Assembly (NCBI GenBank): GCA_964036195.1
Contig: OZ038450.1
Coordinates: 16,618,701-16,682,700 of the forward strand
Direction: 5' to 3'
DNA length: 64,000 nt
DNA from: Sphaerolaimus hirsutus
Taxonomy: Eukaryota; Nematoda; Chromadorea; Monhysterida; Sphaerolaimidae
Below are positions 4,950 to 62,922 of this stretch, one piece after another (position 1 is the stretch's first letter; the number at the start of each line of letters is the position of its first letter). Both the position numbers and the translations under genes were made by a program. The notes under the pieces were generated by a model. It was not told the DNA's origin. It saw only the letters and a list, made by a program, of their open reading frames with translations, and ran no database searches.

Positions 4950-5189
4950 TCAACCAACCATTCTGGCCTGGGCGCCGCTGCGGTCGCCCTCGGACGCCAG
5001 ATTTGAACACATGAGGGCCAACTGCCACAGGGGCTCATTCAAGGCGCGATTCTGCACCACACTCGGCTGGTCCGCCACGACGAGACGGTTGAACTCGGCC
5101 GCCCGTGGCTCCTGCGCCGCTAGCTGGGCATCGATGTCCTTGCGCAGCGCGGCGATTCGCGAGTGCCGCTCAGCCGCCGATTGAGCCCC
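4950..5189 (-). CDS. OTU gene exon 6 (C-terminal, stop)
   Basis: The acceptor CCATTGCAG precedes GGG GCT CAA; 79 codons follow before TGA at 4950-4952. The peptide is rich in Ala, Arg, Glu and Gln and probably helical, with no Pro before about residue 29. The last sense codons, GTT GGT, could also be a splice donor (ATG|GTTGGT), since GTTGGT appears to serve as the donor of E1 exon 11. I saw no plausible further exon down to base 1, so the stop is preferred. Confidence 0.65.
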   Translation of the reverse strand, partial: GAQSAAERHSRIAALRKDIDAQLAAQEPRAAEFNRLVVADQPSVVQNRALNEPLWQLALMCSNLASEGDRSGAQARMVG

Positions 5190-8100
5190 CTGCAATGGCA
5201 ACGAAGAATGGCGAATCACCCCGCGCATTTGTGCGCAGTGCACATCGGAGGCACGTCGCCGCGCCGCACCGCCCACCTATCTATCCAGCCCAGAGGCCGC
5301 TCAGCTATCTATCTATCCCGGAGGCAAAATCTTGGGCTACTACACCCTAGCGATTTTTCTCCCTTTTCTTCCTTCTAAGTGATGGAAAAGCGCCAGGAAA
5401 AATGGCGCCATGGCGCCATTCAAAAAATTGGCGCCGGGCGTTAAAGGGCGCCAGTCAAAATGGCGCCAGGCGCCATCTGAAAAAATGCCGCCGGCGCTTT
5501 CGTCAGACGTGTTGGAGGGGGAGTTATTCTAGGGGGGAGTTATTCGAGGGGGGGGGGAGATTTTTTCCTCAGGAAACTTGGACTTGATTCATTGTATGGA
5601 TGCAGTATGTAAACTCGTTTTATTCAGGTATTTCACCGTCCAATAACAACAAAACAATGTGTATACACTTCATACATATTATGTATCTGCTGTCGCGGTT
5701 ATAAGCGGTTATATACTATTCTTTTATAGTTTTGTATTGTATCCTTTTCATCAGAGGGAGGAATGTTTAACAGGGGGAGTTATTCAAGGGGGGCAGTTAT
5801 TTTTTCCTCACCTCGCCAAAAGGGGGGACTTATTCAAGGGGGAGTTATTCGAGGGGGGGTCTTATTCGAGGATTAGCGGTATGCATAGCAACCCTTCCTA
5901 AGGCAACTACTGTGTTTCCTCAGATAAACCCCCCTCAAAATACCCCTAGGTACCGAGCTGGGAAAAAGGCAAGGTAGGCGAGCTGGGAAAAAATAAAACC
6001 CCGAAAGTACTTCAAGAAAATACAGTGCGTTGTGAATAGGTTATCAACGATGTAAGGCCTAGGAAAAATGATTGACATTTTTTCTAATTGCGGGTTATAT
6101 TTGAAAATTTGCAGTTTGTGGTATAAAACCATCAACATGACCCCAGCCTCGCAATGCTAGCATAAAAATTACAAAGGTGAATGTGTTCAACATCATTCAA
6201 CATCAAAGTTATATCATTCGGCAGATAAGGCACATGAATATGGAAAAATATGCCCGTTAATCTAGGCATTTTGGCGCCATTTCCGGCGCCATCCACAACA
6301 ATGGCGCTTGGCGCCAAATTGGCGCCACTGAAAATGGCGCCAGGCGCCAAGGGCGCCATGGCGCCATTCGAAATAATGGCGCCAGGCGCCAGATGGCGCC
6401 ACAGAAAAGGGCGGCAAGCGCCAATGGCGCTGGCGCCATTAAACGGCGCCAGCGCCATGGCGCCATTCCATCACTAGTGGCAACTGACCTTGAAAAATTG
6501 GAAAATGGAAAAAATGTACAGGGCCGATGTTAGACGCCACGTCTAGAAGTTAGTTTTCGACAACTTTAGAAGTTTTATACTGTTAGAAGTGGAACGCTCC
6601 ATATTTATACCGTATTTATGTCACTAAAAACACACCAATATGAACAAAATAAATACAAAATAAGGAATATATTTGCCAGGACAAATAAATCAAAGCTGTG
6701 AAAAGAACACGAGCCAACCGTCTCGTCTGTGTCCATGTGCTGCTGGCGCTGGCGCTTCCTGTTCGGGGGCGGCGACGCGGCCTCCTCGTCCATCGGCTCG
6801 TCCATCGGCTCGCCCCGCTGCTGCGCGTCTTCGATCACATCGTCCTCCTGCGTCACGTGTGCTCATTTTGCACTTGTAGATCATGTACTCCAGAAAATTA
6901 AAAAGATTACGCCGCAGTACATTTCTGTGTGTTTTGAGTATGAGATGGGAAATTTAGGTTGTAATTGAGGCGTCCAATTCTAAAAGTCGACAAGTCCAAA
7001 ATATGAAAATTTCGAGTTAGGCCCGAAAACGTCATCTGTGGCTACTTCCGCACATTTTTCATCATTTTCCAAAAATTTGTTGACCTCATATGCCCATGGC
7101 AAAGTGCTAAATATGACATTTTTGGGAAACAATCAAAAAAATTGGGCAAGAAGTCGACAAGTCCACTTAATTTTGGGCTAAAAGTCGACAAGTCCACCTT
7201 CTGCCGCCGTTTTTATGGGAAAAAACGCAAGAAATGGTATAAGTCTATCATGGACAGCGATTTCTAAAAGTCGACAAGTCCATAAATTTCCCATAAGCTG
7301 GCAGGCGCAACCTGGGCGGGAACAAAAATGTTCTGGAGTGCAAGAGGTCGACAAGTCCATTTTCCTCCCCAAAACAGTTTTGTTCGGACCGAGTAGAATT
7401 TATAGACACCCAATTTTTCCATTATATTTACGTTGAGAGCAGGGGCTGAAAATTTGACACTTTATTTTGACCATTTGGAACTTAATGTTGAGCATGAGAG
7501 AGCCCCATTGGACACGCACCTCGGACCTGGAATTGGAAATGAAACTTAAAATGCAATTTACTCAAAACTGAATTTTGTGGACTTGTCGAGTTTTAGAATT
7601 AGACGCCTCAATTATATGGTCTGAGCGATTAGGGGAAATATGCACACACGAATTGAGTGTACAGATGATTGAAATGACAAAAGTGCAGATTGTGGTCTGT
7701 GTGATGCAGCTGCAGGATACATGTAAAAACAATGACTGTGTAGGACAGGGCTCATACCGTCGACATACTTACCGTATTTCCTCGGTAAATACCCCCAGGT
7801 GGTTTATTTTTTCAGAGTGGAAATTTTGAGGGGGGTATTTCGAGGGGGGGGGGGGGCTTATTCAGGGGGGGGGGTATTTTTTCGTCATAAATTTTCGCGA
7901 AATCCATGGTAAGGAACGCGCTCTTACATACCTAAAACCGGTTCTAAACATGACTAAATAGGAAAACGTGGGACATTCAACGTACATCCCTATATACAAA
8001 CTAGTGTATCGGTGTATCTAAGATGCAAATTGGCAGTAATACATACATCATGCACATTGCATACATGATGTACATCATTCCAGACGGGGGTATTTCGAGG

Positions 8101-11100
8101 GGGGGTTAATTCAAGGGGGGTATTTCAAGGAAATACGGTATTTGTAGCAAATACGGTAGTTATTTTTCGAGTGTCCGCAGGGCGTTACTGCCATCAGCAC
8201 AGAAGCATACATCATGCAATAGGGCATTGGAAAATCGCTAGTCACACGTTCCATCCAACACGATGAGAATTGACGCGCGGCGGCACGGAAAACCTGCATC
8301 AAACTAGGTATTGGGCTGTCGGGAAAGTTCGTTCCGTCTTCCCTTGGATGGTCGGGGATTGTGAGTTTTGAGTCGGTGTATATAAGCTGGGATTACCGCT
8401 CAACGTAAAATTCAAAAATAAAAGTTTACCGCGAAATGAATTACATAAAAGTGGATGATAATACATATCTCCTACTTTATGTTTCCAGCCGATTTTACAT
8501 TGAAATTTCATCGAAAGATCGAAAACCACGGAAACGCTGGATCGTGCACGTTGAGTTTTGAACATTATTGAGAGATATATCAGCACTGCATTGACTTTTA
8601 CGTAATCAATTTTGTGGTAAAAATTTATGCTTGGATAAATTCCAGCTTATATACGCCGGCTGAATGCCCACTGATCGTCCAGGACGATCCAATTGGCGAC
8701 GATCCTGAAACGGCACGAACTTTCCCGACAGACCAATACATGGGCGCACCCACCTGTTGATGACCACATCCGGCCTCGACCACATCGAGCAACGGCTCGT
8801 AATGGACGCCGGCTATGTTGGCCAAGTAAATCGCTCGCCTGTCGTCCGTGGGCAGCGCGAATCCCGGCAGTGCGGACAACGGGCGGTGCTCCCGCCATTT
8901 TAGCTCGCCAGAATTTGGCTGCAGCTCATTCAGCGTGTAAATGCGAGTCTGCGAAGGGTATTCACAAATGTTGTTACTATGATACGAACAATTGCGGTAA
9001 GTCATGAAATTGTGTCAGATGTAGGAAAAAGGGTTCAAACGGTACCAGTTTTTTAAGCCGGGATCAAAATTTGTTTTCCAGGGATTGGGAGTAGTGATGG
9101 AACCATTGCAAAATTTTATCGTTTTTATAAAACCACCCTGAAACCGTGTTGGCGCCATTGTGGCGCCCTTTTAGGACTTTAGGGAAATTTACCGTACCGT
9201 ACCATACCGCGTACTGCACTTTTCGGATTTACCGTACCGAACCGCTTACCGCAAAATTGAAGATTTACCGTACCGTATCATTTACCGCATAATAGAAAAT
9301 TTACCATACCATACGGTTTACCGCAAGGCCGTACCGTCTGCCACCCTAGCGCCCCGCGCCATTTTTTGTGGATGGCGCCATTTCTTTGCGCGTTTCCATC
9401 ATTAATTGGGACCGTAACCATCCCAGTTCCGAAACTTCGGCGAACCATCACAGGGCGCCGTGGTCCCGTTTGAACGCCAGTTGAAAACATTTTGCAATCT
9501 GGTGGGGAACACCGATTTCAAGTTCCATTCAGGCATTCCCGTTCGAGTGAATAACGCTTTTCCAGGCGTTTGGGATAGCAAATGACAGTAGCTGCACAGC
9601 GGGACCCAAGACACGCGCACCTGCAGGATGGTCGCAAGGGCGTAAATGGCTGTGACGTTGGCCCAGGCGTCGTGGCGGCGCTGCGCGGCCACCCAGTCGG
9701 CTAGGGGCTCGTCGCAGCGGGCGGCCAGGGCGCGGCCACACGCGGCCAGCTGCTCGGCCGCCGGATCCGCGCCGCTCGAATAGAGGTCCATTTGTTCGCG
9801 CGCGCGATCCCACCGCGCCACTTGCGCGCACACCTGCGGGGAGGCGTTGCTTTCGAGACTCACTTTGCACCAGCACCACTCGTTGGCGCCGCGCCAGTGC
9901 TGCATTGGCCTGGCGCCGACGCCAACCTATACTATTTATGCACACATACATAAGACCTAAATAAATGCCAGTGCGCACCGCGTTCAGAAAATTGCTTCAG
10001 TGTTTTTACTCCTGAAAACTTTTGTTATGAAATGTTTTGGTATGAAAAAGTTGTTATTTTGCTGTGGAAATGCACGCTTGCATGCCAAATATTTGCCTAC
10101 AAAGTCGCCATTTCTGGCACCCATGGAAATTTGCATGTTGCAGTCAACAGAACAGCTATTGAGTCGCACCTAATGTCAAACGAACAAAGGTCCAATTGTG
10201 AAATCCGGAAGGAAACAAACGAAAGCCCTTATAAATGCATGACCGGCATCGTGGCCAGACAGCACAGTGGCGATTGATCGAAACAAGCAGGACCCATCGG
10301 CCAGCACCGGAAATGTTCTAAGTTGGTCCGCGCGCAGAGCGCTCGGCACAAGCTTGTTCTCAGCCGGGACGAAGCCATCGCCCTGCTGCCGGGCCTCGTC
10401 GATTGGCACCGCGCCAGACTGGAAAAATGACCTCATTGCAGATTGACTTACATGTTGAAACTGTGAAGGCAAGGCCCTGGGGCAGAGTTCTTAAAAGTAC
10501 TGAACTTTTTTCAAAGTATACGTAAACGTAAAGTATGTATTTTTTACTCACCCCCTGAGTACAGAAAACGCAAAGTAAATTTTTAATACTTTTCCCTCCA
10601 GAAAAATTATTTTTGGTAAATTTTGGCTCAATTTTCACTCAAAATCACTCATTTTGTCATGTGCCTATTTTTAGCAATTTTTTCCTATTTTTTTGCTTTT
10701 TCTCCTCCTTTTTCCAATCTATGCCTTGAAAAAGCCTATAAAAAGCCTATCTAAAGTACGTATTCTGTACTGTAAAACTTTTTTCAAAGTGTACGTAAAT
10801 GTGTTTACTCAGCACTTGAGTATACATACTTTTTGAGTAAACGTAAATAAGTTTTAACAACTATGCCCTGGGGATCACAGGAGCTTATTTTTTATTAAAA
10901 GAAGAAAATAATTGAAGATAAAAATGTCAGCCTTCTCTGGGGTTCGACTCACCTTGAAGTTCACGTAAGGCAGGTACACGCCGGCGTCGGCAGCCATTCT
11001 CGTCAAAGCGGCCACTCTGCTGCTGCGCCACTCTTCGTTTATCCAATGGAATTCGCGCCGCTCGTGAGCAGCGGGGCGATCGGGCGGGTCGAGCAGCTGC

Positions 11101-11207
11101 AGCGAGCTGTCCGATGAAAGCTGTTCGGCCGACACGTTCGGGTCCAACGCCCGCTTGGGGTGCGCGCCCCCGCTGCTGCCCGCGACCGGCTTCTGTGATG
11201 TGGACGC
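4950..11207 (-). CDS. OTU-family cysteine protease (deubiquitinase-like), 6 exons
   Basis: OTU proteases are cysteine isopeptidases that normally cleave ubiquitin chains. Six minus-strand exons (11207-10953, 10418-10221, 9833-9621, 8948-8754, 6847-6719, 5189-4950) join in phase 0 into 409 codons. The OTU core spans exons 2-4: DGSCLFRSI supplies Asp and the catalytic Cys, HAFIRAF continues the N-terminal half, DAWANVTAIYALATIL matches the central helix, and HYEPLL supplies the catalytic His. Exon 5 is acidic with an NRKRQRQ basic cluster; exon 6 is helical and ends in TGA. No obvious ATG exon was found; an in-frame ATG at 11238-11240 would read through a strong acceptor. The gene lies just downstream of an E1 gene on the same strand, so it may be a separate gene or the 3' part of a fused E1-OTU gene. 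The exact OTU subfamily is not recognised. Confidence 0.8.
5190..6718 (-). other. Intron between OTU exons 5 and 6, repeat-filled
   Basis: No coding sequence seen. It contains a GGCGCC-array relic starting GTGATGGAAAAGCGCC at about 5382-5510. G-rich MITE pieces (GAGTTATTCGAGGGGGG) lie at about 5507-5882 and a MITE end lies near 5910-5960. A second GGCGCC array at about 6262-6478 ends CCATCACTA. Frames across the GGCGCC arrays give Ala/Pro/Trp-rich translations that are not genes. Confidence 0.6.
6719..6847 (-). CDS. OTU gene exon 5: acidic linker with basic cluster
   Basis: The 43 codons after CAG| read EDDVIEDAQQRGEPMDEPMD, then a Pro run, then NRKRQRQQH, a possible nuclear localisation signal. 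The exon is phase 0 on both sides, so it fits between exons 4 and 6. The acceptor tract (ACACGTGACGCAG) is weak and the donor is GTTGGC, so this is the least certain exon. High GC relative to the flanking AT-rich DNA supports coding. Confidence 0.55.
6963..7613. mobile_element. Non-autonomous element with AGTCGACAAGTCCA arrays
   Basis: Terminal inverted repeats of about 35 bases (AATTGAGGCGTCCAATTCTA and its near complement) enclose a region with at least six copies of AAGTCGACAAGTCCA in mixed orientation. The element lies in the intron between OTU exons 4 and 5. No coding capacity is seen, and a target duplication is not clear because the ends run into an AATT palindrome. Confidence 0.65.
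7772..8138. mobile_element. MITE, CCGTATTTCCTCG family
   Basis: Starts CCGTATTTCCTCGGTAAATA and ends TTTCAAGGAAATACGG with TA on both sides. It carries poly-G tracts next to both ends and internal ATGATGTACATCAT repeats. Intronic in the OTU gene. Confidence 0.65.
8311..8736. mobile_element. Mariner-like MITE
   Basis: The ends TTGGGCTGTCGGGAAAGTTC and GAACTTTCCCGACAGACCAA form inverted repeats flanked by TA (8309-8310 and 8737-8738), as in mariner elements. There is no transposase. The right end stops 17 bases from OTU exon 4, whose last base is 8754. A second copy is at 33548-33975. Confidence 0.8.
8754..8948 (-). CDS. OTU gene exon 4: catalytic histidine
   Basis: The acceptor CCTTCGCAG precedes ACT CGC ATT; 65 codons end at CAG|GTGGGT, a strong donor. 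The peptide runs TRIYTLNELQ ... AIYLANIAGVHYEPLLDVV. HYEPLL matches the C-terminal His-Tyr motif that completes OTU catalytic sites. Phase 0 at both ends. Confidence 0.82.
9031..9473. mobile_element. Nested hAT relics in OTU intron (GGGACCGG, GGCGCC and CGGTACGG families)
   Basis: Outer ends GGGTTCAAACGG and CCGTTTGAAC match the element at 18417-18705. Inside, 9092-9404 runs from TAGTGATGGAACC to GTTTCCATCATTA with flanks ATTGGGAG and ATTGGGAC (7 of 8 matching). Within that, about 9185-9350 is an array of TTACCGTACCGTA ending TCTGCCACCCTA, the right end of the family at 52017-53160. Three element families are stacked in under 450 bases. Confidence 0.6.
9621..9833 (-). CDS. OTU gene exon 3: central OTU region
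   Basis: The acceptor CCTCCCCGCAG precedes GTG TGC GCG; 71 codons end at CTGCAG|GTGCGC. The peptide starts VCAQVARWDRAREQM, joining exon 2's HAFIRAF into a continuous helix, and ends WANVTAIYALATILQ, matching the OTU pattern W(A/G)xxxxxxALAxxL. GC-rich. Phase 0 on both sides. Confidence 0.8.
10221..10418 (-). CDS. OTU gene exon 2: catalytic Asp and Cys
   Basis: The acceptor TTTTTCCAG precedes TCT GGC GCG; 66 codons follow. Residues 39-52 read LADGSCLFRSIATV, the OTU signature DGxCLFR with the catalytic Cys at exon residue 44. The proposed end is TTC|GTTTGT, chosen because it joins HAFIRAF to VCAQV in phase and in register with the OTU fold. The frame stays open about 22 codons further, so the donor is inferred. 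Confidence 0.8.
10483..10865. mobile_element. hAT-type element, AAAGTACGTA-array family
   Basis: Ends CAGAGTTCTTAAAAGTAC and TTTTAACAACTATG; exact 8-bp duplication CCCTGGGG at 10475-10482 and 10866-10873. Subterminal copies of AAAGT(A/G)TACGTAAA occur on both sides. It lies in the intron between OTU exons 1 and 2. Confidence 0.8.
10953..11207 (-). CDS. OTU gene exon 1 (first recognised exon)
   Basis: A strong acceptor (TATCTTTTTCAG) precedes GCG TCC ACA; 85 codons end at TTCAAG|GTGAGT. The peptide ASTSQKPVAGSSGGAHPKRA continues to HERREFHWINEEWRSSRVAA and VYLPYVNFK. I do not recognise a domain. Because it begins at an acceptor there must be an upstream exon: either an unseen short ATG exon or E1 exon 15, which ends in the same phase. 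An in-frame ATG at 11238-11240 is an alternative start, in a poor context. Confidence 0.75.
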
Positions 11208-12027
11208 CTGAAAAAGATAGAAAACAAGTCGACAGCGCATAGAGCTTTTTTAGGCTTAAGTTTAAAAAAAAGATGTTTTTAAAAAGACCCCTTGGTAGGA
11301 TGCGATACAGGTGACAAAGACACGCTACTTTCAACAGAGCGCGAGATTTACTAAAACAAAGCTCCTACGTTTGCATACTCAAAACCATTTCTGCGGGCAA
11401 AACCAGAAGCACATTGAATGAGATAATTATACACTCACAACTTCAGTTAAATACTCAAACAAGTGCTGGTGCCGTATACTGTATATCCTCGAATAAGACC
11501 CCAGGGGAGTTATTATTTTGTCATAAGTTTTGGAGGGAGGAGTTATTCCAGGGGAGCGTTATTCAAGGGGGTCGTATTCAAGGGACGTATTCGGTTTCCT
11601 CAGAACTGTGAGAAAAACTTGCACTTTATTAATGTATGAATGCATTCCGTCAACTCACGTCATCCAGGAATTAAGACTCGCTTTCCCTAAGAACCAAACC
11701 TGCCAAATGCCCATCATCACAGACAATCCCGCTCTGAAGACTCTTTAGATGACATTTGAGATGACATTTTATGAAAAAAAGTTTCCATGATATACTCAGG
11801 TTATTTTATCATGCTCTGATGGGTCCTATTATGTGTATATATGCCGGGATAGATAGATAGCTGACCGATTTGGTGGGGGGACAGCCCCCCCCCCTAGGAG
11901 ACCCCTGCCCCAACCCCCTTACTGAACCCCTGACTCAGATAACACCGACGAAAAATTCAGCGTACTCCAAAAGGCACAGCGCGCAAGTACACAGCGCACC
12001 AAAAAATACGCAAACCACCAATAATCA
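11208..12027. other. Junction between E1 and OTU exons; no UFD coding seen
   Basis: This stretch should hold the E1 ubiquitin-fold domain (about 330 coding bases) if E1 were a normal separate gene. I read all three minus frames and found nothing resembling the conserved WTLWDRF region. It contains an incomplete CCTCGAATAAG MITE at about 11473-11600, a GATAGATAGCTGACCGATTTGG dispersed repeat at about 11848-11925, an AATAAA on the minus strand at 11630-11625, and AT-rich sequence. A short frame at about 11650-11720 ends in GATGAC|GTGAGT but carries stops or no Met. Confidence 0.6.
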
Positions 12028-12243
12028 TCAACCAACTTTTTTCTTGGGCGCGGCGATGGGCTCGCTGAACGCGAACAAAGGCAACGCCAAGTTCAAAAAG
12101 CCGTTTTTGAACCGATCCATCGGAATCGGGTGCCGATTCGGCCCGGCGGCGATCATTTTGTACATCTCTAAGCAAACGAGTCCCGCTACGGCAGCGGTGG
12201 TCGTAGATATGGCGGGAATTATGCCACCGGCGATTTGTTTTAT
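12028..12243 (-). CDS. E1 exon 15: end of adenylation domain, possible terminus
   Basis: The acceptor TTTCTCGCAG precedes ATA AAA CAA. The 69 codons include [22 protein letters not shown] and [25 protein letters not shown], all strongly UBA1-like. After AAA at 12037 the frame reads GTT GGT TGA (stop 12028-12030). GTTGGT is also a possible donor (phase 0), as at E1 exon 11. Human UBA1 continues about 110 residues with the UFD; nothing equivalent follows here. Confidence 0.88.
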
Positions 12244-15200: not shown

Positions 15201-18200
15201 GTATTTTAAAAATACCTAGGAAAGTGTACAAAAAGTGTAAGTGTAAAACAATTTTTGAGAAAGAGCTCTCACTGTTGAGCATTAGAAAACACTGCTGTTC
15301 TCACCTTTAGATCAATTTATTTATAATTTTCATGCATTTTTTTACAATGAAACATTTCAGACTGTAACAAATACTGTAGTGGTATGAAGTTCCCTAATAA
15401 TGGCACTTTTTCAGTGTTGATATTTTACTGATTAAGCAATGCGATACACACTGTTTAAATGCAAGAATAGACATGCAACAAATGTCAATGCAAAAGTTGA
15501 TTTTGTGTCCAGCTGGTGAATTTCCATTGATCTTGTCCTTTTTACAAAAGTATGATGAAACTGTAGGATACCATGAGTACAGATCAAAGGTTGTAGCTCA
15601 AAGGCTAGTTTGTACATTTGCCATATTTTCTACATTCAATGCATTTTTTTGTACATGACCCTATTTTATGCTTTCTCAAAAGTACATCTGAACGAAAAAA
15701 TACACTTTCTGTACCCGGGTATTTTGCCCAGGAATGTGTAAAAAAGTGTATGGGTATTTTATGAAAGTGTAAGTGTAAATATAAATACCCATTTACCCGG
15801 GTATTTCGGATAAGTGTAATACACTTTCGCAACTCTGCCATTTACATTTACATGTTCATTACATCGCAAAAGCACTATTCCGACTAATCGCCAATTTCCA
15901 ATCTGAAAAAGTGACAAGAAAAGTCTTAAGTAGTAAGTTAACTGCAGCGGTAAGTCAAATAACACGTAAACTTATGTGATTTCGCTACCACTTGTCACCT
16001 GTCCACTTGCAAGAATGAAGCGATATATAAAAATATTTAGCACCCACTTTTAGCACATCGGCCGTCTGAATGTCATAATTGCAAGCCCTCAGATTTGCTG
16101 CCGCCGCCACAAATTCCATATGATGATTTGTATCATCGTCTCTCTCGAAATCGATCGGCACCAGAGGTTGGACTTTTTCCGGTCCCATTTTCGCCATGGC
16201 CAACTGCATCGCCTCCACTTCGCTGTCAACGTCGCCGACTGAAATTTTTTTCTTTTTTATTTCATTTATCGGTCAGTGTTCTGATGACATCTATTCAGTA
16301 TCGAATATTGTCCAATTTTATCGATGGAATGTCGATGTATCGACGACAAAATACCCAGATTTTGGAATCCCAATTTTATAAAACGGGCGCACCCGAACCT
16401 CCGTTGTTTCAATTCTCCTACAAGTGACATAGTGTTCCGATTTTACAAAAAAAAAACACGAAAACATTATCATCTCTGAATAGATAATTAGCTGAGCAGG
16501 GTCTGGGACAGACAGACAGCTGAAACATTGGGGGTATACCGAAACCACTCCCCTCTCTACCCCTGACAACCCCCCCCCCAAGAAAAAACCCATCGCCAGG
16601 CGCCAGAAAGTCCATGGCGCTCACCTCCCTCGAACCCACCATCCTCGGCTTGCTGTTTAGCCTCGGCATCGGTGACTGCGATTTTGACGCCGCTTTTCGC
16701 CACGAATTTGGGCGCCTTGTAGCTGGTGGCGATTCTTTTGACCGATTCAATGTCCACTATTGGTTCCAGGCCATATTGTTGCGCGTGTAGAATGGAGGCG
16801 GAGTAGACGAATGCTAGGTGGTCGGACTGGATTGGGGGGGGGGATTTTTCCGCAGGTGGAGAGTAAAAAACTACAATTAAAAAATTATATTTACTCATTT
16901 TTAAGTTTTCTGGGAAAAGTACTTCAATTTGAACAAATACAAATACTCAAGTACTTTTGGTTTTATCATGCGAAAGTTACTTTTACGTTTGATCCAAGTA
17001 AAACACTTTCCTCCTCTACGTTTTCTGTAATCGAACAGTGACTAGTTTTGAATACTCGTTTTCTTTACTTAGGAAAAGTGAACTAACTGAAAAAGTTAGG
17101 TATTTACATTCAACAACTTTATTTTTAGTACCTGAGTAGACAAACAAGCGTCAACAAGTTCGCAGGCCGCCATTACCTGTAAAATACCAACTACCCAAAC
17201 CCCAAAACCCACATTATTCTCGTCGAAATTCAGCGGATGGGGACACCTTTTACTGCCGCTCCAAAATCTGGCACCCTGTTCAGTCATTTGATCCGTGGGA
17301 AAATTTTGCAATAATTGCGCGATTTGATTGTGAAAATTCTCCTGCCACAATTGTCTGGCCCAAATGACACACGATTCCGAATTGGCCGGCCTTTCGTCAA
17401 CTAAAGCTCTTTTCGCGTCGGCGTGAACTTCCAGCTGTGTATTGGGGGGGGGGGGGGGTATTTAGATTTGGGACCTCGCACTGAAGTGGTTGAAATTATG
17501 TTGAAAAAATTACGCGTTAAAAGACTCGGGTAGATAAAACGATGTCTACGATTTCAAATGACATTATTGCCACAACAAAAACTTTTTTTCTCGGCACATA
17601 GCCAAGTTTGGGGGTAATAATGCTAATGATGTAAACACGCACTGGGGGCAGTCCCAAGCCCTGTAAAGTGTAAAGTAAAGTGTCAAATGTAAAGTCAAAT
17701 GCAAAGTAAAGTGTCAATCAAAATAAACAAAAACGAAAAGATTTTATTACTGAACTTTGCATGACAATTGACAGTTTACTTTGCATTTGACACTTTACTT
17801 TACACTTTACAGGGCTTGGGACAGCCACCTGATCAGAAAGGGTGCAAAAGTATTCGAAACATAACTATTTGCAGGAAGTAATAATAATACCGTATTACCT
17901 CGAATTATCCCCCCCCCCTTGAATTACCCCCCCCCTCGAATTAACCCCCCCCCCCTCAAAATGGGCTGGGGAAATAATAAACCCCCCCTCGAAATACCCC
18001 CCCCCTCCAGAATGATGTACCTCAAGTATGTGATGTACATGATGTACTTATTACTACTAATTTGCATTGCAGATATACTTATACGCTCATTTGTGTACAG
18101 ATGTACATCTATAGCCCCAATACTACCTATTTTCTCGCGTTTATTACCATTTTTGTGTGTGAAAAAGCGTATTCTCTACTACGAATTTCACGAAAATTTC

Positions 18201-21200
18201 TGACGAAATAATAAAACCCCCTCTCGAATAAACCCCCCCTCGAATTAACCCCCCCTCAAATTTTGCTGGCGAAATAAAAAAAACCCATGGGGGTATTTCG
18301 AGGTAATACGGTAATTGAAAAATTCAAATTTTGATATTTTCATTGTTTTAAAGCGATCTTTCAAAAAAACTGGGCGTCGCAAAACGTAAACATCCCGGCG
18401 CTTTTCACATCACTACTAGGGTTCAAACGGGACCAGTTTTTCCGACCGGGACCAGAAATGTTCTAATGTCGGGACCAGGACCGGGACCTGACTGGGGGGT
18501 CGGTAACGGGACCGGGACTGGCTTTTTTCAATTGTCGGGACCGGCAATGGAGGGTCGGGACCGGGACTGGGGTGTCGGGACCGGGACTGGCTTTTTTCAA
18601 TTGTCGGGACCGGGGCTGGAGGGTCGGGACCGGGACTGGGGTGTCGGGACCGGGACCGCCCCAGTCCCAACCATGTACCGGAACCGCGGTCCCGTTTGAA
18701 CCCTTATCACTACTAGTGAGAAAATATATATACCGTAAATCCTCGAATAAGTCCCCAGGGGAGTTTTTTTTCCTCAGAATTTTTTGAGGGGGGCTTATTC
18801 GAGGGGGGAGTTATTATTTCATCGGAATATTCAGGAAGATGCATGATCAAGATATTGTCTTTATGGGGATAAATCAGGTGCATAAACGTGTAAGACCGAA
18901 TAGAATTAACGTAATTCATTCAATGAAATCAACGCTAGTGTGCATCAACTGCTGAATAGAACATTCTTCTAATGAACATTTACATAATGCATTTTTTAAT
19001 GCAAAGGCATCTTTCCCATCCATCAAAGAGAGGGGAGTTTTTCGAGGGGGGATATTTTTTCCTCAGTCAGTTAGCAAGGGGGTTATTCGAGGGGAGAGTT
19101 GTTCGAGGGGGGGACTTATTCGAGGATTTACGGTACTTCGCGGACCGCATGCTATGGAAAGGTTGGATCCACGGTTGGAAAAATCGACACGACACAGAAA
19201 TCGGAATGTTTTTTTGGGGCGCATAATTTGCGGTCCGCCGAGTATCACCAAACCTAACACAGCACAGGTTTTGCATGCCATCAAGCTATTTACATCAATA
19301 CAATTTGTGACAACAGTATTCAATGATCTACAAGACAACAACAAAACCCATGGCTGACTCACTATATTGTTGCCTCTAAGATCCTGTTAAAACAAAAGCC
19401 CTTTATCAATGCCGAACAAATAGTTGTTGAAAGATAATTGATAATCAATTTACCGAATGATACCGCTTTTCGAAAAACCGGCATAAATTCAGTGCTAAAC
19501 GATGTAATAGCCAAAGTAGTGTATTCTGAGGAAAATACACGTATCTCTTCTTCACAATTCAGCTCGGTAGTTTTCATTGCAATGTGTGCACCCAGACGAT
19601 TACACCACAATGGCGCCATTTTTACGCCAAATATGGCGCCAGCGCCATCCAACCACTAAAAAAACCAAACCAACCCTCTGCCCAGCGCGCATCTGATCCG
19701 CCCTCTGAGCAAACGCCGTGGGATCCGCTAGCCACTGATTGGCTACTTCACTGGGATTCGTGTACAACCCCTCGAACATGTCCCTGGCCCACTGAATCGC
19801 GTGCTCAATAGCGTTGGGAAAATTCTTCAGGGTGTAAATAGGGATGAATTTTTCTGGCGGGTCGGCGGAACTGCTGTATGATTCAGTCGGGTGCGGGTAG
19901 ACAACCTTGGATAAGGTGGGGGATTATTTGAGTTGATTTTATTGAGGGGGTGTTTGCAAATTAAAAAGCAATTACTCGAAATTGTACGTGTACGTGAAAT
20001 TGTACGAAATTATAAATTGTTTTACCCGGTGGGGCCAGTGATATCTTTACCTTATATATTTATTGAGTAGCCGCTAGTGTAGGAATCAATTGTCATTTTG
20101 CACATTCAAGTTTGCATTTTATGCAGATTAGGTAAAATACAAATAATTTACATCAACACAGTGACATTCTCAAAATCCGAAAAACCGCCGCTAAACGACA
20201 CAATTCGAAAACAAAACCCATCACTAACAAATCCACTACCGTTCATAATAGTTTGGAATCTGGTATCAGAAACTGTTCTGGTGATATTCAATTGCAGAGA
20301 AAAATGGCTATGAAGTAAGTAGCCATTTGTTTGATGTACAAGAGTGTTCACAACACGCATGCGAAATATTATTTTTCAATTTTACTCATGAGCCATTTTA
20401 TAACAAATGATTTGCACACACCTCAATTTGTTCCTCGTGCATAAAAGTCCGGAAAATGCAACAAAAGCTATTCTAAGGTCTCAAAGAGAAAAGTCTAAGA
20501 AAAGTCTCAAAGAGACTACCAGTTGGACGGTTCATTAGACGCATCTGATGGATCAGAAAGCTAAGAATGCTATTCAATTTTTGTCCATTTCAACAAAACA
20601 TCAATGGGAAAAAGGGAAGTGTGTTTAGTGTAACACATACACAGACATGAGCGGACGTCTTCAACATGCTTTCCATCCTTGTCACGTCTATTATCAGCAT
20701 GTCTAATGTTGTTGACGGTCTCGTTTTTGTTGAATGCATCATGGGGAAAGTGAATGAACCAGTCAAATGTGTGGACAACATTGCGAAAGTAATATTTAGG
20801 GCACAGGCAGGGTTTGTATGCAACAACCCATTCTGGCGCCCTTTTTCCAAATGGCGCTCTTGGCGCCCTTTGCCCTTGGCGCTCTCTTTCCGTGGCGCCC
20901 TAGCGCCTGGCGCGCACTTTCGCAATGGCGCCATGACGCCCTTGGCGCCTGGCGCCCTCTTCCTGTGGCGCCATTGGTGCCTGGCGCCCGGTTTCCGAAT
21001 GGCGCCATTGGCGCCTGGCGCCACTTTTTCTGGCGCTTTTCCATCACTAGATATATATATATATATATAAGTTTTTTTCTGAAATTTTTATGTTGCATAT
21101 TATTCCGGCTATCCAACTGCTAGCCCCTTTGAGGGTTTTCTTCACCTTATAATAGCTTTTGTTGCATTTTCCGAACTTTTATGACCCAGGAACATATTGA

Positions 21201-24200
21201 GGTGTGTGCAAACCATGTTGATTTGTTCTAAAATGGCTCATGAGTAAGATTGAAAAATAATATTTGAAAAATTTGAACACCCTTGTGCATCAAACAAATG
21301 GCTATTTACTTCGCGGCCATGTTTCTCTACAGATATGGAATATCACCAGAACAATTCCTGATGTTAGATTCCTGACTTTTATGAACGGCAGTGTATACAC
21401 CCAAAAAACACACCTGAGTATTCCCCTTTGGCCCCATAGTTCCACTCTCCAAAAGCGGCAGCCTATAATAGACACATCTACGATCCATATAAGCCCTCGC
21501 CTCGACCTTATCCAAGGCATAAGCCACCCCATTCAAGCGAGTGAAAAATTTGTCGTCAAAAATCGCTTCCGTGTCGCCGCCGACCCTTTCAGCCATGGCG
21601 GTGCCGTTGAAGTCCGAGTTGAACTGCTTGACGGCCGCGATGGCCGCGCTGGACTTTTTCGACTGCGGGGGGGTGGGGGGGTTCGGGGGTGACGGTTGGG
21701 TTTGGGCATCGAACAGACTCGATTTTTGGAACCGAAACATGATACCCGAACGGGAGTTTTTTGGAACTGATACAGCGCACCTAAAATGTAAGACAAATTT
21801 GTCAAGTGCAAAGTATCCGTAAGATTTTTCTTTGTCATTTTACAGGGCACTTTACATTTTGCATGACATTTGAGAAATGTCATGATAAATTTTAAAGGAC
21901 TGGCCTCAGTCTCAGGGTTGACCGATTCTCAATTATCTAAATGGAAACATAATTTGTGTAAAATAAATACATATCATTTTCACGTTGTTTTTTTCGTTTA
22001 AAAAGTATTTTAAATACTTACGCAGTGTAAAGTGAAAAAAAAAATTATTTAAGTTTCCTGCACTCAGCGGTAAAAATTACTTTACGCTTACTTTGAAAGA
22101 AGTTGAGTACAGTTAGCAACTCTGAATTCTACCAGTAACCTAACCAACACTAACACAAATGGCTTCAATTTAAACAACAAAAGCAACTCACCCCAACATC
22201 GTGTCTCCTAAACAAAAACTGGCGGTTCAAATTGGACACCTCAATCTGGTCCATATCCGTAACAATTACACCGCCTTCTTTCGAACAGCCCAATCCCATC
22301 ATTGCAAAATTTTTCAGCAATTCGCAGCCAGTGGCGCCAGCGCCAACGACGAACCATTTTTGCAATTGCATCGCTTCTATGAAGCGCCAGCCGAAAATCG
22401 CCGCCGCGCCGTCGTAGCGACTTTGGCGCTGTAAAAATGTCGAAAGCGTGAATTAATTAAAGTTTTGCAATTATACCGTATTTACTCGAATAATTCCCCC
22501 GGGGATTTATTTTTTCGTCAGACATTTTTGAGGGGGGAACTATTCAAGGGGGGAATTATTCAAGTGGGGGAATTATTATTTCCTCAAAATTTTCAAGTAG
22601 GTATGTTTCCGCCACACAACATACACATGTACGTCCAATTTCCATTCATAGTGCAGATTCCTTTGCATCCTTACACACCGAATGTGCTGCATTTGTATTC
22701 GATGAATCAAACGAGGGACTGCTTTTTTGCTTGGTTTGATTTCATCGATTGTCTTTTTAATAAATGTGCATTATTTATTCTCCGTCATAATGGGGGGGGG
22801 GTTATTCAAGTGGGGGAATTATTTTTTCCTCACTTGTCTAGCAGGGGGGATTATTCGAGGGGGAAATTATTCAAGTGGGGGGAATTATTCGAGTAAATAC
22901 GGTAGTTTGAATGATTTTGAAGCGAAAAGTGGGCGGAGTTTACGTGGCAAAAATGTCGCGGAAAATGTGGCGCTAGATACTATCTAGTAGATAGGTTAAA
23001 GCGCCCAACTATCTACAGTGATATTTGATAAATTTGGCAACATTTTCGCTATAAATGGTCAGCCTTCATACCATTTTGCCCATTTTAACCTACAAAATCT
23101 CTTGTCCTTATTTTACCCTATAGTTACGCTTTCTTTCCCTTTTCTGCCTTCTATACCCTAAAAAGCCCGCACATTGAACCCGCTCCCCAGAAAAGTTTTC
23201 AGCATTTTCCCCACCGACCGGGGCGCACATTTCCTCGGTGAGTTTACGCGAATCGAACTCTGGGCACCATTCCGTCGGCAGGCACTCTAGCGCATCGAAG
23301 TACAGGTATTGTTTGAGCGGAGTGAATACACCAGTGACCGCTTTCATGGCTTCCTGAGAAATTTGGGGAAATTTTGGGCGCGAAATTTTGAAGCAGGGTT
23401 TTTTATTTGATGGGAATTTTGCGGGGAAACGCAATTCGTTTGTAATGGAACGAGATTGAAATTGAAAATAGATTCGAGGATTTACGGTATATAAAGATTT
23501 CGAAATTCGGAATAATGATAACAAGTTTTATGAGGTACATTTCTCAAAATATCCAAGATTCTTCACTCAACTCAAAAGAATTAAACCGAAAAATTGGAGA
23601 AAAAAACAAATCTGTCACCCCCTGCAAACCTGCGCAGCGACTCCGCCCACAAAACTGGTCATTGGACACAAAGAACCCACGGCATTATAAGAAAACGCCT
23701 GGGTCAATTCCTCAGGAACCTCCTTACCCACATCAATCGCGGCCAAAAACTCCTTAATTTTCTGGGCGTCATCCTTATTCCTAGGTTTAGGCAATCTTTT
23801 GTGGGCCGCCTGAAATTGGTGCAGCGCCTGCCATAAAGCGTGCAAGTGGGCGGGGCGTCCGAATTTTGCAAAATCCGATTCTAAAATGTCCGGTGAGGCG
23901 AGGGAATCCGCTAATGATTTGAACGGCATCTGCGGAGTTTTTTGGGGGTTGTATTGATTTGTGCGACGATAGAAAAGCATCCAAGGAAAAGCTAAATATT
24001 TATGTAGCAGGGTTCGATTGTGCACGTGGGCAACCGAAAATGGACCCAGCAGATGTAGGCAACAAAGACCGCATGGCAACTGCGCTCAGTGGGCAACAAT
24101 CACCGCATGGCAACCGCGGCACACGCACAGTGACCGCAGGCGCCCACCAAGATTTGATTTTTGGGGCAATGTTGTTTACGCGAATTTTTACCTTAAATCA

Positions 24201-27200
24201 TCTCCTAGAAGGCATCGTAAACCAGCTTTAAAAGTGTGTATTAAGGATTTGACTTAAATCGAAATTTAATCTGGTACTTGTGTATGGGTGTCAAATACAC
24301 TTTCATACCAGATCAAATTTTTGTTTTAAAATTTGCTTTTTGAATACACACTTTTTACAGTGGTATACATTGTCCTCCAAGGGACATTCTAATGTAATTT
24401 TTAATTTTGCTGTCCAGTGCTAAACCTGGACAGCGAATTCTCAAAAATATCATATTATTTTCCAGTGGTCAACTCTCAGGGGGGTCGCCAGGGGGCTCAA
24501 CCTTCCGTGAAAAGTAGTGGGGGGTGTCGTGTACACCCCCTCAAAATTTCGATCAATTCCCCCCAACAGTTTTAGTTTGGCAGCCCGTTATATCAAAAAA
24601 ACAACGGGTGGCGGACCTCGCGTGGACAGCGATTTTTTCAAAAAAAAACTATTCATTTATACGGCGACCCACACTCAGGTGGGTCGCCGACCTTCCCCAG
24701 CCCGTATATAGTAGTGGGTGGGTTTCGAGTATATGCCCTCAAAATTTCGAATAAATCCACCCACTACAACTGGAGATATGGCGTCCGGCACCGACCCAGA
24801 ATTTGGGTGGCGGACCTGGCGTGCACCCTGTTTACAAGCACATATCACAGTATGTCTCCCTGCACATGCCGCAGTGCTCATATCAGTTTGTCTCCCTGCA
24901 CATGCCCGAAGGCACAGATCACATGTCGCTGTTCTCATTGCACATACACGCGGGGCGGTGTTGTCGAAATGCGTGTGCGCGCGTGAAGAGTACATGTATT
25001 TATCTCTATAAACATCATCTCAAATTTATTGTAATCGTTGTTGGGAATGTGCTGCCATTTGCTCACCTGAAAAACTCCCTTGGGGTGTATTTTTTCATTG
25101 AAATTATCAACTTGTTACTGGTATACACAGGGGGATTATTCAAAATGATGAGTTATTCAAGATAACATTATAGATAATTTTACTATTACTAATCAGTCTA
25201 ACATGTCTCTACAATTTATTTCACAGATTATCTATTGATTTCAATTTTTGATATTTGTTAATGGCTGTATATTTGTTTGGCTGTATATTTGTCAATGTGC
25301 TGTAGGGATAGATAGATAGCTGAGCGGCCTCCGGGAATGATAGATAGCTGGCCGATTTGCGGGGGCTCCCCCTAGGAGATCCCTGCTTCACGCGCGCACA
25401 CGCATTTCGACAACACCGCCCCGCGTGTATGTGCAATGAGCACAGCGACATCTGTGCTTTTGGGCATGTGCAGGGAGACAAACTGTGATATGAGCACTGC
25501 GGCATGTGCAGGGAGACATAAATACTGTGATATGTGCTTGTATGTGCAATGTAGCACACTCATTGTGGCTCACTGAGCGCACGCAGTTGCCCACTGAGCG
25601 CTGTTGCCACGCGGTTATTCGCCCCGAAAATAGTGCGAAAGTGTTAAGTGATAAGTAAAGTTATAAGTGTAAATGAAGTGACAAGGTAAATTGTAAATGA
25701 ATACAATGAATAATGAATCATACAATGAATAAATTTTCGACACCTGTCTACTTGCGGAATTGACAGCTTCTCAACAATTGAAGCAGATTTTTTCGCTGAT
25801 TTCTGATGATAAATTTCCACTGGTTGTTCGTTTCCTTATCTCATATTTTTGCTATTTGTTTACATATTTCAATGTGAAATTCAAAAATGTTTCTGGAGTC
25901 ACCGGAGAAAATCAGTCGCTATTTCATTATATAACGTGGAAAAAAACGAACCTTTTTGGGCACTTTGACTTGTTTGGCGCGCCCGCCCTCCAAGTAACTA
26001 TCAGCCATCTCAGAGCAAACACTGCCAATGTTGAATTTTGTAGGACCTGAAAATCAATGAATGTTTTTCCTATCAAAAATACCAATTTCAACGGGGGTCT
26101 TGTAGATTTGAACCCCATTCCGTGGTTCAGATCATATTTGAATCGCTCCTCAGAACAGATAAATAGCTGTAAAAAATTCCTGGGGGGTTGGTTGGAGGAG
26201 CGTTTCAGGGGGTCCAATATTCACGCATTTTCAAGGTGTAGAAGGCAGGAAAGGGAGAAAAATTGAGCTTCGACCCATATAGCTGAGCTGCGCATTGGAT
26301 GGATGGATGACTGGAGCGTTTTTTTGAGGGAAGGTAACCCCTACTAGACCCCTGACTGTCAAATGTCAAAAACATTCGATATCCGCTGTAAACGTCATAT
26401 CATTTCAACCCCAAACCCAACCAAAGTAATAAGGTAACAAACTTTTCACTGTGACAGGCACAGGCACAATTCCATTTAACCCGCTGAGACCTTTGATCTC
26501 CGCAAAAGTGACATGATCCCCGTCTTGCAAATTGTGTTTAGCATCTTCCAATGTGGTCACATCGCCGGTGGTTTTGTCGATGTGCTCAATTAGCACCTGG
26601 GAATTGTTTTAGAATTTTGTTTGAAAGTGCGGGTTTTTTCGAAAATTTTTTCCACAAGGTGTCTTTAAGTGTCATGCACGAGTTAGAAAGAAATCAGCTG
26701 GTGAATTGTGAAGTTGTATTTATAGGTTCTATCGTTGATGGACAACTAGGGTTGGAAAACAGGTCCTCCAACGTAGAGGACCAAAAACGGTTTTAAAAAA
26801 GATACTGAAAGAATTTTTGTCAAATAACAGACTACACACTCTATAAACGATTAGTGCACACTTAAACAAGAAATAATTATTTTGCGAACAATATGGCAAA
26901 CATGTGAAATATCTAGTGAATTAGTACTGAAAATTTCAGTATTTAAAAAACACGGTTCGCATGCCCGTTTTAAAAACCTTCTCTAAAAACAGACAAAAAC
27001 GGTGATCACATCCCCCAACTCACTTCCACACACTGTTCCCCATCCGAATCGTCCACCATGTGTTCGTCGCAAAAATCGTCGAAAATCATCGCAAACAAGC
27101 CTCTGGCGTCAGCGATAACGGTTTTGGTGCCGTTGGCACGCGCCCAAGAATTGATTTCTAGCTGTTTCGATAGCGGCGTCTCGGTTAGAATGATAAGCTG

Positions 27201-30200
27201 TGGGCAGGGAAAGGTGGTTTGTTGTAATTGGGGTAACTATGGCAATTTTTTTCAATTGTTTGAAGTTGCGGTTGAAAAAAAGAGTTTGAAGGAATAATTT
27301 TCCATTCAGACAACGTTATAATTTATTTGGAGCTAAGATATGGGAAACGCAGGCCTAATAACTTTTTGATATAGATAATCCGATTTTTTTTTTAAACCAA
27401 CCACCAAGTCCCACCACAAAATACCCCCAACCCACATCGAACTGCTTGACGACCCCCTCAGCAATCTCCTGGGTACTAGCAGTGACAGTAACCGAGTCGT
27501 TCAATTCCTCCAAACGCGGTAGCGACACGTCGGCTCTGTTGCTGCCCACGTCTTTCTGGGTCAGGTAGTACTGGCTGGACAGGTCCGGCCATTGGACCGT
27601 AGAGGTGTCCTGTATGGGGTGGCCGGAGTTTAGTGGGGGGAGGTGGGCGGAGCTTAAAGGGGAGGGGTTTGGATGTGAGTAGTGATGGAAAAGCGCCAGG
27701 AAAAATGGCGCCATGGCGCCATTCAAAAAATTGGCGCTGGGCGCCAAAGGGCGCCAGAGAAAATGGCGCCATGGCGTCTTCTGAAATAATGGCGCCAGGC
27801 GCCAGAAACAATGGCGCCAACAGTAAAATTCACTATTTTAGCCTGTAAATCATCACAGAAGCATTCAGAGAAGAGAAACAGGCTGTACAATTTTTCTGAT
27901 GGTGACTCAACTCACCTTATCGTGAATATTACCTACCGAATTTATTCAAAATACCCCCTCGAAATACCCGCAGGTGTTTTCGAGCTGGTGAAAATGAACC
28001 CCCTCGAAATACTTCCCGTCTGGAATAATGTACATCATGTATGCAATGTACATCATGTATATATTGCTCGCAGTTTGCATTGTAGCTACACATATAAATA
28101 CTAGTTTGTGTATTCAGTTATGCACGTTGTAACGTCCACATATACCCTTTTTGGACGCATTGATTGCCGATTTTGGGTATATAAAACCGTACTCCTACTA
28201 TGAATTTCATGAAAATTTCTGACGAAATAATGATACCCCCCTCGAAATACCCTTCTCAAAATACCCCCAGGACTGAACAAGACTGTGGAAATAATAAATA
28301 CCCCCAGGCCCCAAGGGTTTACAGTGCATTGTTAATAGGTAATCAATTATGCAATGGCTGCGAAAAAAATCATTTAAGATTGACATTTTTTCCAATTGTC
28401 ATATTTGAATACCTATTTGCAGTTTATGTGATATAAAAGAATCAACATGAACCCAAACTTGCAATGCTGGCGAAAAATTCCAAAGGTGTAAGTGTTAAAT
28501 ATCACATAAATGACATCATTCAGCAGAAAAAGCATTTTAATAAACACCTTCCCGGACAAGTTCACCACCCATTTTTTTATTTCACTTAAAATGCAATAAA
28601 TATCTCTGGCTATGGGAGTCGTATAAACCTAATATTTGGTGGGTATATAGTCATAACACCCTACTACTCCGAATAAATGGGGGAAGGTGCGGCGACTCAC
28701 TACAGGGTGGGTCGCCCTATATGCAAACATTTTCTGTGGCTTTTTCGGTGTCCCAAACAAGTTCACCACCCACTTGATTAGCAACACTACGAGGGCCATA
28801 TCTCCAGCTGTGAGGACGATAGAAATGTGTAATTTGGGGGTTCCTTTGCAAACAACCCCCTCTCACAATACACCAGTGGGTGGCCGCCAACGACCCACTA
28901 GAGAATGGGTCGCCGCTTATAAATTTGTTCATTTTTCACAAACAACTCAAGTCTCCCAAACAAGTTCGCCGCCCAACTGCATTGTAAAAAAGTGTTGTGA
29001 GAACAAACCTGATATAAAATTGAATCAGATTTGAACCTTAGTTCTGCTCATTAAAGTTTTCAGTAGGGCACCCACCCTGTCCCATAAATGGCAGACTGAA
29101 AATTTCAGTTAATAATTTTTTGTTTCATACTTAAGAAGTTGGTTTACAAAGTTCACTAGGGGAGGGTCTAAGGTTCAAAGTTATGTGAACAACATAACCT
29201 CTAAAATGCCTGCATAACAAAATTTATTTGGGGTGAATGAAAAAGTAAAAATTTTGTCAAATTTTGTTCCTGTAATGTTGTGATTCTGACATCATAATAT
29301 TCACCCCAAATAAATTTCCTTATGGACGCATTTTAGAGGTCATGTTGTTTACGTAACTTTGAACCTTGGACCATTCCCTAGTGAACTTTGTAAACCAACT
29401 TTTTAAATGTGAAACTAAAAATTGGTTTAAAGTGAAATTTTTGCTCTGCTGTTTTTGGGACGGGGTGGGTGCCCTACTGAAAAAAATTTAATTAGCAGAA
29501 CTAGGGTTCGAATCTGACTCAATTTTATATTAGGTATCTTCTCACAATATTTTTTTTTTTGGAGCTGGGTGGCAAACTTGTTTTGAAAAAAATGAACAAC
29601 TGTACATACAGTAACGCATACCGTAGTGGATCGCTGGCAGGCACCCCCACAGGTGTATTGTAAGGGGGGTTGTTGGCAAGACATCCCCCAAATTTCAGCT
29701 TTATACCAGCCTCACAGCTGGAGATATGACCCTCGAAGTGTAGCTAATAAAGTGGGTGGTGAACTTGTTTGGGAAACCAAAAAAGCCAAAAAAATTGTTG
29801 CATATAGGGCAACCCACACTGTAGTGAGTCGCCCCACCTCCCCCCATTGAAGCAAAGTAGGGGGTGTTACAACTTTATATATTCAAAGTTTCAGCTTTAT
29901 AACACCCCCATAGATGGAGAAATTACAACCGAAGTGAAATAAAAAAATGGGTGGTGAACTTGTCCGGGAAGGTGTTTATGACCAAAAATAATCACGCATC
30001 CCGGCATCTTGGCGCCATTTCCGGCGCCATCGTAACAATGGCGCCGGGCGCCAAATTGGCGCCAGCGAAAATGGCGCCAGGCGCGCCATGGCGCCATTCG
30101 AAATAATGGCGCCACAGAAAAGGGCGCCATGGCGCTGGTGCCCTTTGGCGCCATTAAAGGGCGCCAGCGCCATGGCGCCATTCCATCACTAGATGTGAGT

Positions 30201-51637: not shown

Positions 51638-51837
51638 NNNNNNNNNNNNNNNNNNNNNNNNNNNNNNNNNNNNNNNNNNNNNNNNNNNNNNNNNNNNNNN
51701 NNNNNNNNNNNNNNNNNNNNNNNNNNNNNNNNNNNNNNNNNNNNNNNNNNNNNNNNNNNNNNNNNNNNNNNNNNNNNNNNNNNNNNNNNNNNNNNNNNNN
51801 NNNNNNNNNNNNNNNNNNNNNNNNNNNNNNNNNNNNN
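51638..51837. other. Assembly gap, 200 N
   Basis: Exactly 200 N, as in the second gap at 62723, so the length is probably a placeholder. Flanks are a GGCGCC fragment on the left and a CCTCGAAAT MITE piece on the right. Confidence 0.99.
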
Positions 51838-62722: not shown

Positions 62723-62922
62723 NNNNNNNNNNNNNNNNNNNNNNNNNNNNNNNNNNNNNNNNNNNNNNNNNNNNNNNNNNNNNNNNNNNNNNNNNNNNNN
62801 NNNNNNNNNNNNNNNNNNNNNNNNNNNNNNNNNNNNNNNNNNNNNNNNNNNNNNNNNNNNNNNNNNNNNNNNNNNNNNNNNNNNNNNNNNNNNNNNNNNN
62901 NNNNNNNNNNNNNNNNNNNNNN
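62723..62922. other. Assembly gap, 200 N
   Basis: Exactly 200 N. The sequence to its right starts inside a foldback arm, which could mislead scaffolding because the arm occurs in both orientations nearby. Confidence 0.99.

Follow-up and report, generated by a model that had tools for sequence, protein, structure and literature searches.

Most cellular ubiquitination begins with the E1 enzyme UBA1. In PMC11099125, C632 is given as the catalytic cysteine of UBA1, and the UFD is described as bound by E2 during transfer. A deubiquitinase joined to an E1 domain is described for bacteria in PMC11354881, where the deubiquitinase is of the JAB type. We analysed a window of 64 kb (the whole stretch of DNA under study, C1:16618701-16682700) in which a UBA1-type E1 gene without catalytic cysteine and without UFD lies upstream of an OTU protease gene on the minus strand. 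If joined, the two would resemble the bacterial JAB-E1 fusions of ubiquitin-like operons, as described in that paper, in having an E1 domain and a deubiquitinase in one polypeptide. No E1-OTU fusion was found in the literature, judged by titles. To our knowledge, the bacterial JAB-E1 proteins are the only known analogue of a joined E1 and deubiquitinase; they differ in that JAB is not an OTU protease, in being bacterial and in not deriving from a UBA1 duplicate. The explanation that we favour, with a probability close to but below even, is that a Cys-less and UFD-less pseudo-E1 duplicate came to lie upstream of an OTU of a lineage-specific family and may be joined to it by splicing as a putative scaffold-OTU protein.

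The canonical E1 gene and its truncated copies

The window E1 comprises 15 exons from 32237 to 12037 (Table 1). Exon edges were fitted by GT/AG and frame; the 931 codons are free of stops, and the sole edge without GT/AG is the 5′ one of exon 1, which opens with ATG. Residues 2-902 align to human UBA1 (901 residues, E = 3.5e-290), the tandem adenylation domains and the Cys half-domains being alignable, and PF10585 (E1 Cys domain) matches the protein. The domain order is like that of UBA1 (human structure 6dc6) up to exon 15. The window E1 differs from UBA1 in having no UFD, a Tyr in place of the catalytic Cys, and replacements of the Asn on both sides of the catalytic Asp.

When searching the genome (348 Mb, 762 contigs) with profiles of the E1 Cys domain and the UFD, a complete E1 gene was found on C13 at ~22.40-22.42 Mb, carrying the motif IPICTLKNFPN and three UFD exons. 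This gene, and not the window E1, is the working E1 of the genome. Three further copies were found: that of the window, one at C3:11.708-11.724 Mb (the C3 copy) and one at C1:18.141-18.161 Mb (the 18.15 Mb copy). An additional, weaker Cys-domain match (32.5 bits) is located on C16. The contig C589 (57.5 kb) carries a 3′ part matching the C13 E1 region and is probably an uncollapsed second haplotype of it.

In all three copies the similarity to C13 DNA ends at the same point, C13 offset 18915 in intron 15, which corresponds to window position 11933, offset 23507 of the C3 copy and offset 25577 of the 18.15 Mb copy. The window E1 is a duplicate, broken off in intron 15, of the canonical UBA1-type C13 gene. 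The three C13 UFD exons have no credible match in the 64 kb of the window (the best one, of 10 residues, has E 0.51), nor in the 40 kb around each of the other two copies that were covered in the UFD and OTU exon searches. Genome matches to PF09358 (UFD) at E 0.001 or better were confined to two places, C13 and C589, in an exon by exon search that missed two of the three UFD exons of C13. The absence of UFD coding between E1 and OTU, as claimed in an earlier note on this DNA, was thus confirmed, since neither search matched in that interval. A downstream match between C3 and C13 (277 aligned columns) was considered as what is left of the original E1 3′ end and rejected, as it belongs to a repeat dispersed in the genome (40 of 1943 candidates scored).

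For comparison with other genomes, 120 homologs were listed out of 4995 scoring E 1e-30 or better. In a tree of the four E1s of this genome with 35 rows chosen from these 120, the four group together in a single clade (support 100/100). It adjoins 23 rows, chromadorean where named, with Trichuris and Trichinella outside (midpoint root, for drawing only), and a long row without a label splits off at this fork.

Exons of other genes surround all three copies. In the 18.15 Mb copy, E1 exon 1 and a foreign exon (offset 5816-5950) are fused in one reading frame; the copy's own E1 ATG and 5′ flank are lost, and similarity to C13 starts at C13 offset 5332, 79 bases into the coding region. Because foreign exons adjoin the copies in this way, together with the acidic and coiled-coil-like exons described below, the E1 fragments are now parts of mosaic loci, and the joining of a foreign exon is seen in the DNA itself on the 5′ side of one copy.

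Selection and the loss of catalytic residues

To compare the four E1s, 899 codons of exons 2-15 were used, leaving out exon 1 and three codons of exon 6 where the C3 copy has two extra residues and local mismatches. No stop was found in any of the four. Replacement and synonymous changes private to one lineage (N/S; 30 two-against-two and 11 multiple sites excluded) numbered 19/22 for the window, 21/17 for C3, 23/12 for the 18.15 Mb copy and 10/78 for C13 with the inner branch. Against the neutral expectation this gives P = 1.4e-4, 0.009, 0.17 and 3e-35, respectively. The window differs from the C3 copy by 4.4% in exons, with 3 indels, and by 11.2% in introns, with 156 indels; from the 18.15 Mb copy by 3.7% (1 indel) and 9.8% (136 indels); and from C13 by 5.6% (2 indels) and 14.9% (152 indels). 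Because of the absence of stops, the low N/S and the few indels in exons as compared to introns, the sequences indicate that the coding capacity of the E1 copies has been maintained, with less constraint than on C13. As for sites that are near-invariant among the homologs, the C3 copy avoids them (2/39 changes, 9.6 expected, P = 0.0025; one of the two is the Cys), and the 18.15 Mb copy has 5/43 (10.6 expected, P = 0.05).

These data bear on the view that the E1 fragment and the neighbouring exons are productless debris of a segmental duplication, which we regard as improbable. Constraint is indeed relaxed in the window as compared to C13 (19/22 vs 10/78, P = 2.4e-5), the 18.15 Mb branch alone is indistinguishable from neutral, active-site residues are lost, and further exon-like fragments lie nearby. 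Such debris is hard to reconcile with three copies that are stop-free over 899 codons, with the N/S of the window branch far under neutral, and with exon gaps of 3 and 1 against intron gaps of 156 and 136. Neutral decay of the window E1 is therefore disfavoured by N/S and indels, though its constraint is relaxed.

The codon of the catalytic Cys is TGC in C13, TAC (Tyr) in the window and the 18.15 Mb copy, and CGC (Arg) in the C3 copy. As stated in the earlier note, the E1 core of the window is Cys-less, with Tyr where C13 has the Cys of IPICTLKNFPN. Of the 120 listed homologs, 117 were aligned for counting residues (three with at least 1200 residues were left out), and Cys was found at this position in 117/117. 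In addition, Tyr and Lys of the window E1 replace two Asn, the outer positions of NALDN, that are kept in 116/116 of these listed homologs, and a Thr replaces an Ile kept in 116/117. With numbering inferred from the UBA1 alignment, the human counterparts of these positions are N573 and N577, which surround D576, and I479, next to A478. The Asp itself and the glycines of the nucleotide loop are retained in the window. Since the changes flank the catalytic Asp, they suggest that adenylation may also have been lost in the window copy. A selected UBA1 duplicate without Cys and UFD is surprising even alone, because UBA1 starts most ubiquitination and the Cys is present in all 117 of the listed homologs aligned.

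Synonymous two-against-two sites group C3 with the 18.15 Mb copy (15 sites) over the 18.15 Mb copy with the window (4) and C3 with the window (1). At replacement sites the first pair shares 4 and the second 6, and the protein tree pairs the window with the 18.15 Mb copy (90/85). Four of these six replacement sites fall in exon 11, the Tyr among them, within a stretch of 1294 bases with 91.7% identity between the two copies. This conversion-like block lies at 19946-18686 of the window and at C1:18.150-18.152 Mb, and covers exon 11 and its 3′ intron; the copies are 1.5 Mb apart. The pattern fits gene conversion as the route by which the Tyr may have spread between the two. With or without conversion, two separate changes away from Cys are required. 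The chance that both hit the Cys residue is ~0.001, as a back-of-envelope figure and not a test (~21 of 899 and 42 of 899 replacements). Repeated loss of the Cys after loss of the UFD predicts that an E1 that loads ubiquitin without handing it on would be harmful.

The OTU gene and its possible junction with the E1

The four OTU exons are in phase 0 with AG/GT edges. Exons 2-4 joined match PF02338 with 24.1 bits, above the cut-off of 23.3; adding exon 1 lowers the score to 22.8, just under it. The DGSC and HYEP motifs are kept, and the identification of an OTU protease in the earlier note holds on both grounds, the match of exons 2-4 and the Cys and His motifs. The DG-x-C and H-x-E motifs are shared with the OTU deubiquitinases (PF02338; OTUD3, OTUD1, OTUD5). 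In contrast to those enzymes, no homolog of this family was found outside the genome, neither at E 0.001 (1413 candidates) nor with a family profile at E 0.01 (7997 scored). The nearest solved structures to the family profile in PDB are OTUD3, OTUD1 and OTUD5 (E = 7e-4 to 3.3e-3).

Within the genome, 29 exon matches to the OTU were grouped into ~11 loci including the window, and none of the other loci lies at the place of an E1 Cys domain. In a family alignment of seven rows the Cys is present in 6/7 (Ser in the C2 paralog) and the His in 4/4 rows covering the region, and 6/7 members match PF02338 at E 0.1 or better. The paralog with Ser, at C2:29.18 Mb, reads DGSS at the active site and has its exon 1 cut short by repeat-like sequence; it is probably a dead copy. 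Of the six aligned paralogs, the nearest to the window OTU is 63% identical. The comparison with the paralog at C1:16.95 Mb gave a dN/dS of 0.29 at a dS of 0.88. In the same paralog, OTU exon 1 is preceded at a distance of ~400 bases by an exon DAEFQQAIRNSLEE (C1:16953984-16953690), which we take to be UIM-like; it was not found near the other OTU loci examined. The FHWINEEWRSSR block and the presumably SIM-like run of exon 1 are common to the paralogs. The first Met of OTU exon 1 in the window is codon 71 of 85, while in the paralogs at C1:16.95 and C1:17.31 a Met precedes the corresponding region.

In the window, runs of N occur only at 51638-51837 and 62723-62922, with none between 4959 and 32237, and an assembly join between E1 and OTU was ruled out as no N separates them. 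Exon 15 (12243-12037) closes in phase 0 at a GTTGGT donor, and OTU exon 1 follows 829 bases further at a phase-0 acceptor, tatctttttcag; for both, the coordinates and frame given earlier were correct. The C13 gene carries an identical KKK|GTTGGTTGA after its exon 15, with the UFD exons downstream. The donor of exon 15 should therefore be usable, because C13 must splice there to reach its UFD. Donor and acceptor both have an ordinary consensus, and frames and splice sites connect continuously. A fusion is further favoured by the missing native 3′ end of the E1, by the lack of a Met ahead of codon 71 in OTU exon 1, and by the 18.15 Mb copy, in which a chimera is seen at exon 1. Splicing of E1 exon 15 to the OTU in one transcript is the simplest reading of the sequence, and we put its probability at slightly less than even.

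Under this favoured explanation, a UFD-less and Cys-less copy of the C13 E1, ending in intron 15, would have come to lie ahead of an OTU gene. Transcripts that start in the E1 5′ region, which is retained, would most likely continue beyond exon 15 and be spliced to the phase-0 OTU exons. The encoded protein would comprise an E1 core of 931 residues, then a SIM-like segment and the OTU protease. The E1 part would no longer charge or hand on ubiquitin. It may serve as a folded scaffold that binds ubiquitin or a partner and delivers ubiquitin, or the machinery of E1 and E2, to the OTU for cutting. If joined, this would be a eukaryotic protein that unites writer and eraser modules, and the entry enzyme of ubiquitination would have become a targeting scaffold for an eraser. 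We also propose, tentatively and with more doubt than confidence, a wider reading: an E1 core without Cys and without E2-docking domain would be fused to an OTU as targeting scaffold of the eraser. With the other two copies it would make up a family of pseudo-E1 chimeras, three in number, within a single nematode lineage; on at least two occasions the Cys would have been lost (giving Tyr and Arg) and the rest kept, as if a charged but undeliverable thioester were harmful.

Several observations weigh against a selected, joined protein. Read-through of exon 15 gives VG and then a stop, as noted earlier, and the gap contains one AATAAA, at 11630. Three candidate start exons run from ATG to donor in the gap, at 12028-11966, 11717-11700 and 11714-11700 (21, 6 and 5 codons), and their donors score 4 of 7, equal to that of exon 15 (range 2-6 for 14 E1 and OTU donors), such that they could start the OTU separately. 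The stop, the AATAAA and the three candidates are therefore also compatible with an E1 that is truncated and an OTU gene of its own. Phase agreement is weak evidence because 11/14 E1 introns are phase 0, a caution already voiced in the earlier note. The E1 can be retained without an OTU, since the other two copies have none within 40 kb. The window changes fall on near-invariant sites at the random rate (7/35, 8.7 expected), the 18.15 Mb branch taken alone is compatible with neutrality (23/12, P = 0.17), and the window OTU region is without a close relative for gauging selection since the arrival of the E1. In the 18.15 Mb copy an ATG persists at the junction of the fused exon, where translation could start; reading from the foreign part is therefore not proved.

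Much of this would be expected from two neighbouring genes, that is, a truncated pseudo-E1 polyadenylated near 11630 and an OTU gene that starts independently, in a short gap exon or by a leader trans-spliced at 11208. Besides the VG-stop, the AATAAA and the short candidates with donors as good as that of exon 15, it is in line with this that the E1 places the genome among nematodes, in which trans-splicing is common, and that other OTU-family matches never coincide with E1 Cys-domain places. Two genes would require the KKK|GTTGGT donor to be idle, though the canonical gene needs it to reach the UFD. A leader at 11208 would moreover put the first Met at codon 71, discarding the SIM-like and FHWINEEW segment common to the paralogs. 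We consider two genes possible, with a probability of around one third.

The E1-OTU architecture, which the earlier note had suggested looking for in related genomes, did not recur among the homologs listed or at the other two copies. PF02338 was found in 0/120 of the listed homologs, and the four OTU exons have no credible match in 40 kb around each of the C3 and 18.15 Mb copies (best E 0.21). Since the UFD-less E1 fragment occurs twice without an OTU, the loss of UFD and Cys is independent of the OTU. That the OTU replaces the UFD, as formulated in the earlier note, is an apt description of the outcome and not of the event. It was also considered that the OTU was carried along in the E1 duplication; this is unsupported, with no credible OTU match at the other two copies and the window OTU 63% identical to its nearest paralog.

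Table 1. Features of the E1-OTU locus, in window positions
Feature	Positions	Strand	Remarks
E1 exon 1	32140..32237	-	starts MERNGVAL..., ends LYSRQ; without 11 residues found in the C13 gene
E1 exon 2	31343..31472	-	
E1 exon 3	27436..27609	-	
E1 exon 4	27030..27197	-	
E1 exon 5	26443..26596	-	3′ edge inferred (GT/AG and frame)
E1 exon 6	25952..26046	-	both edges inferred (GT/AG and frame)
E1 exon 7	23630..23929	-	
E1 exon 8	23219..23353	-	3′ edge inferred
E1 exon 9	22192..22428	-	nucleotide loop GAGATG (C13: GAGAIG), VTDMD, NLNRQF
E1 exon 10	21414..21662	-	YALDK; NALDN in the C13 gene
E1 exon 11	19675..19905	-	catalytic Cys replaced by Tyr, codon TAC
E1 exon 12	17213..17434	-	second catalytic Cys half-domain
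E1 exon 13	16625..16826	-	3′ edge inferred
E1 exon 14	16048..16238	-	5′ edge inferred
E1 exon 15	12037..12243	-	last E1 exon present; phase-0 end, donor GTTGGT
Gap E1-OTU	11208..12036	-	829 bases; C13 intron 15 similarity to 11933, then repeats and sequence unique to this place
OTU exon 1	10953..11207	-	SLQLLDPPD (presumably SIM-like), conserved block FHWINEEWRSSR; both edges in phase 0; donor GTGAGT
OTU exon 2	10221..10418	-	DGSCLFRS, active-site Cys
OTU exon 3	9621..9833	-	
OTU exon 4	8754..8948	-	GVHYEPLL, active-site His
Possible further exon	6719..6847	-	acidic (EDDVIEDAQQ...NRKRQRQQ), presumably NLS-like; phase 0
Possible further exon	4959..5189	-	coiled-coil-like; phase 0

Surroundings of the E1 copies

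Upstream of the window E1, an ATG-led open stretch with an acidic tail is located at 33464-33351 on the minus strand; it has no homolog among the sequences searched. Foreign exon-like sequences are likewise present upstream of the E1 in the C3 and 18.15 Mb copies. Both observations would be in line with an E1 that landed in intron 1 of a pre-existing OTU gene and is skipped, with an upstream exon (e.g. near 33464-33351) spliced to 11207. We hold this to be very unlikely. Apart from the lack of a homolog for the stretch, the E1 frame would then go unselected, contrary to its stop-free codons and N/S.

DNA similar to the acidic exon downstream of the OTU turned up at five places. Each belongs to one of the three UFD-less E1 loci, and three lie on the upstream side of the C3 copy. 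At C3:11.690-11.701 Mb, where these three lie, two further copies are 100% and 98% identical to the one nearest. SIM-like exons were found at least twice in the same region and twice at C1:18.139-18.141 Mb. The nearest homolog of the coiled-coil-like exon lies directly downstream of the C3 E1, with weaker ones at two other places and in a tandem array of coiled-coil-like exons at C14:9.868-9.891 Mb. The array is apparently a repeat-built gene, and the window exon may derive from it.

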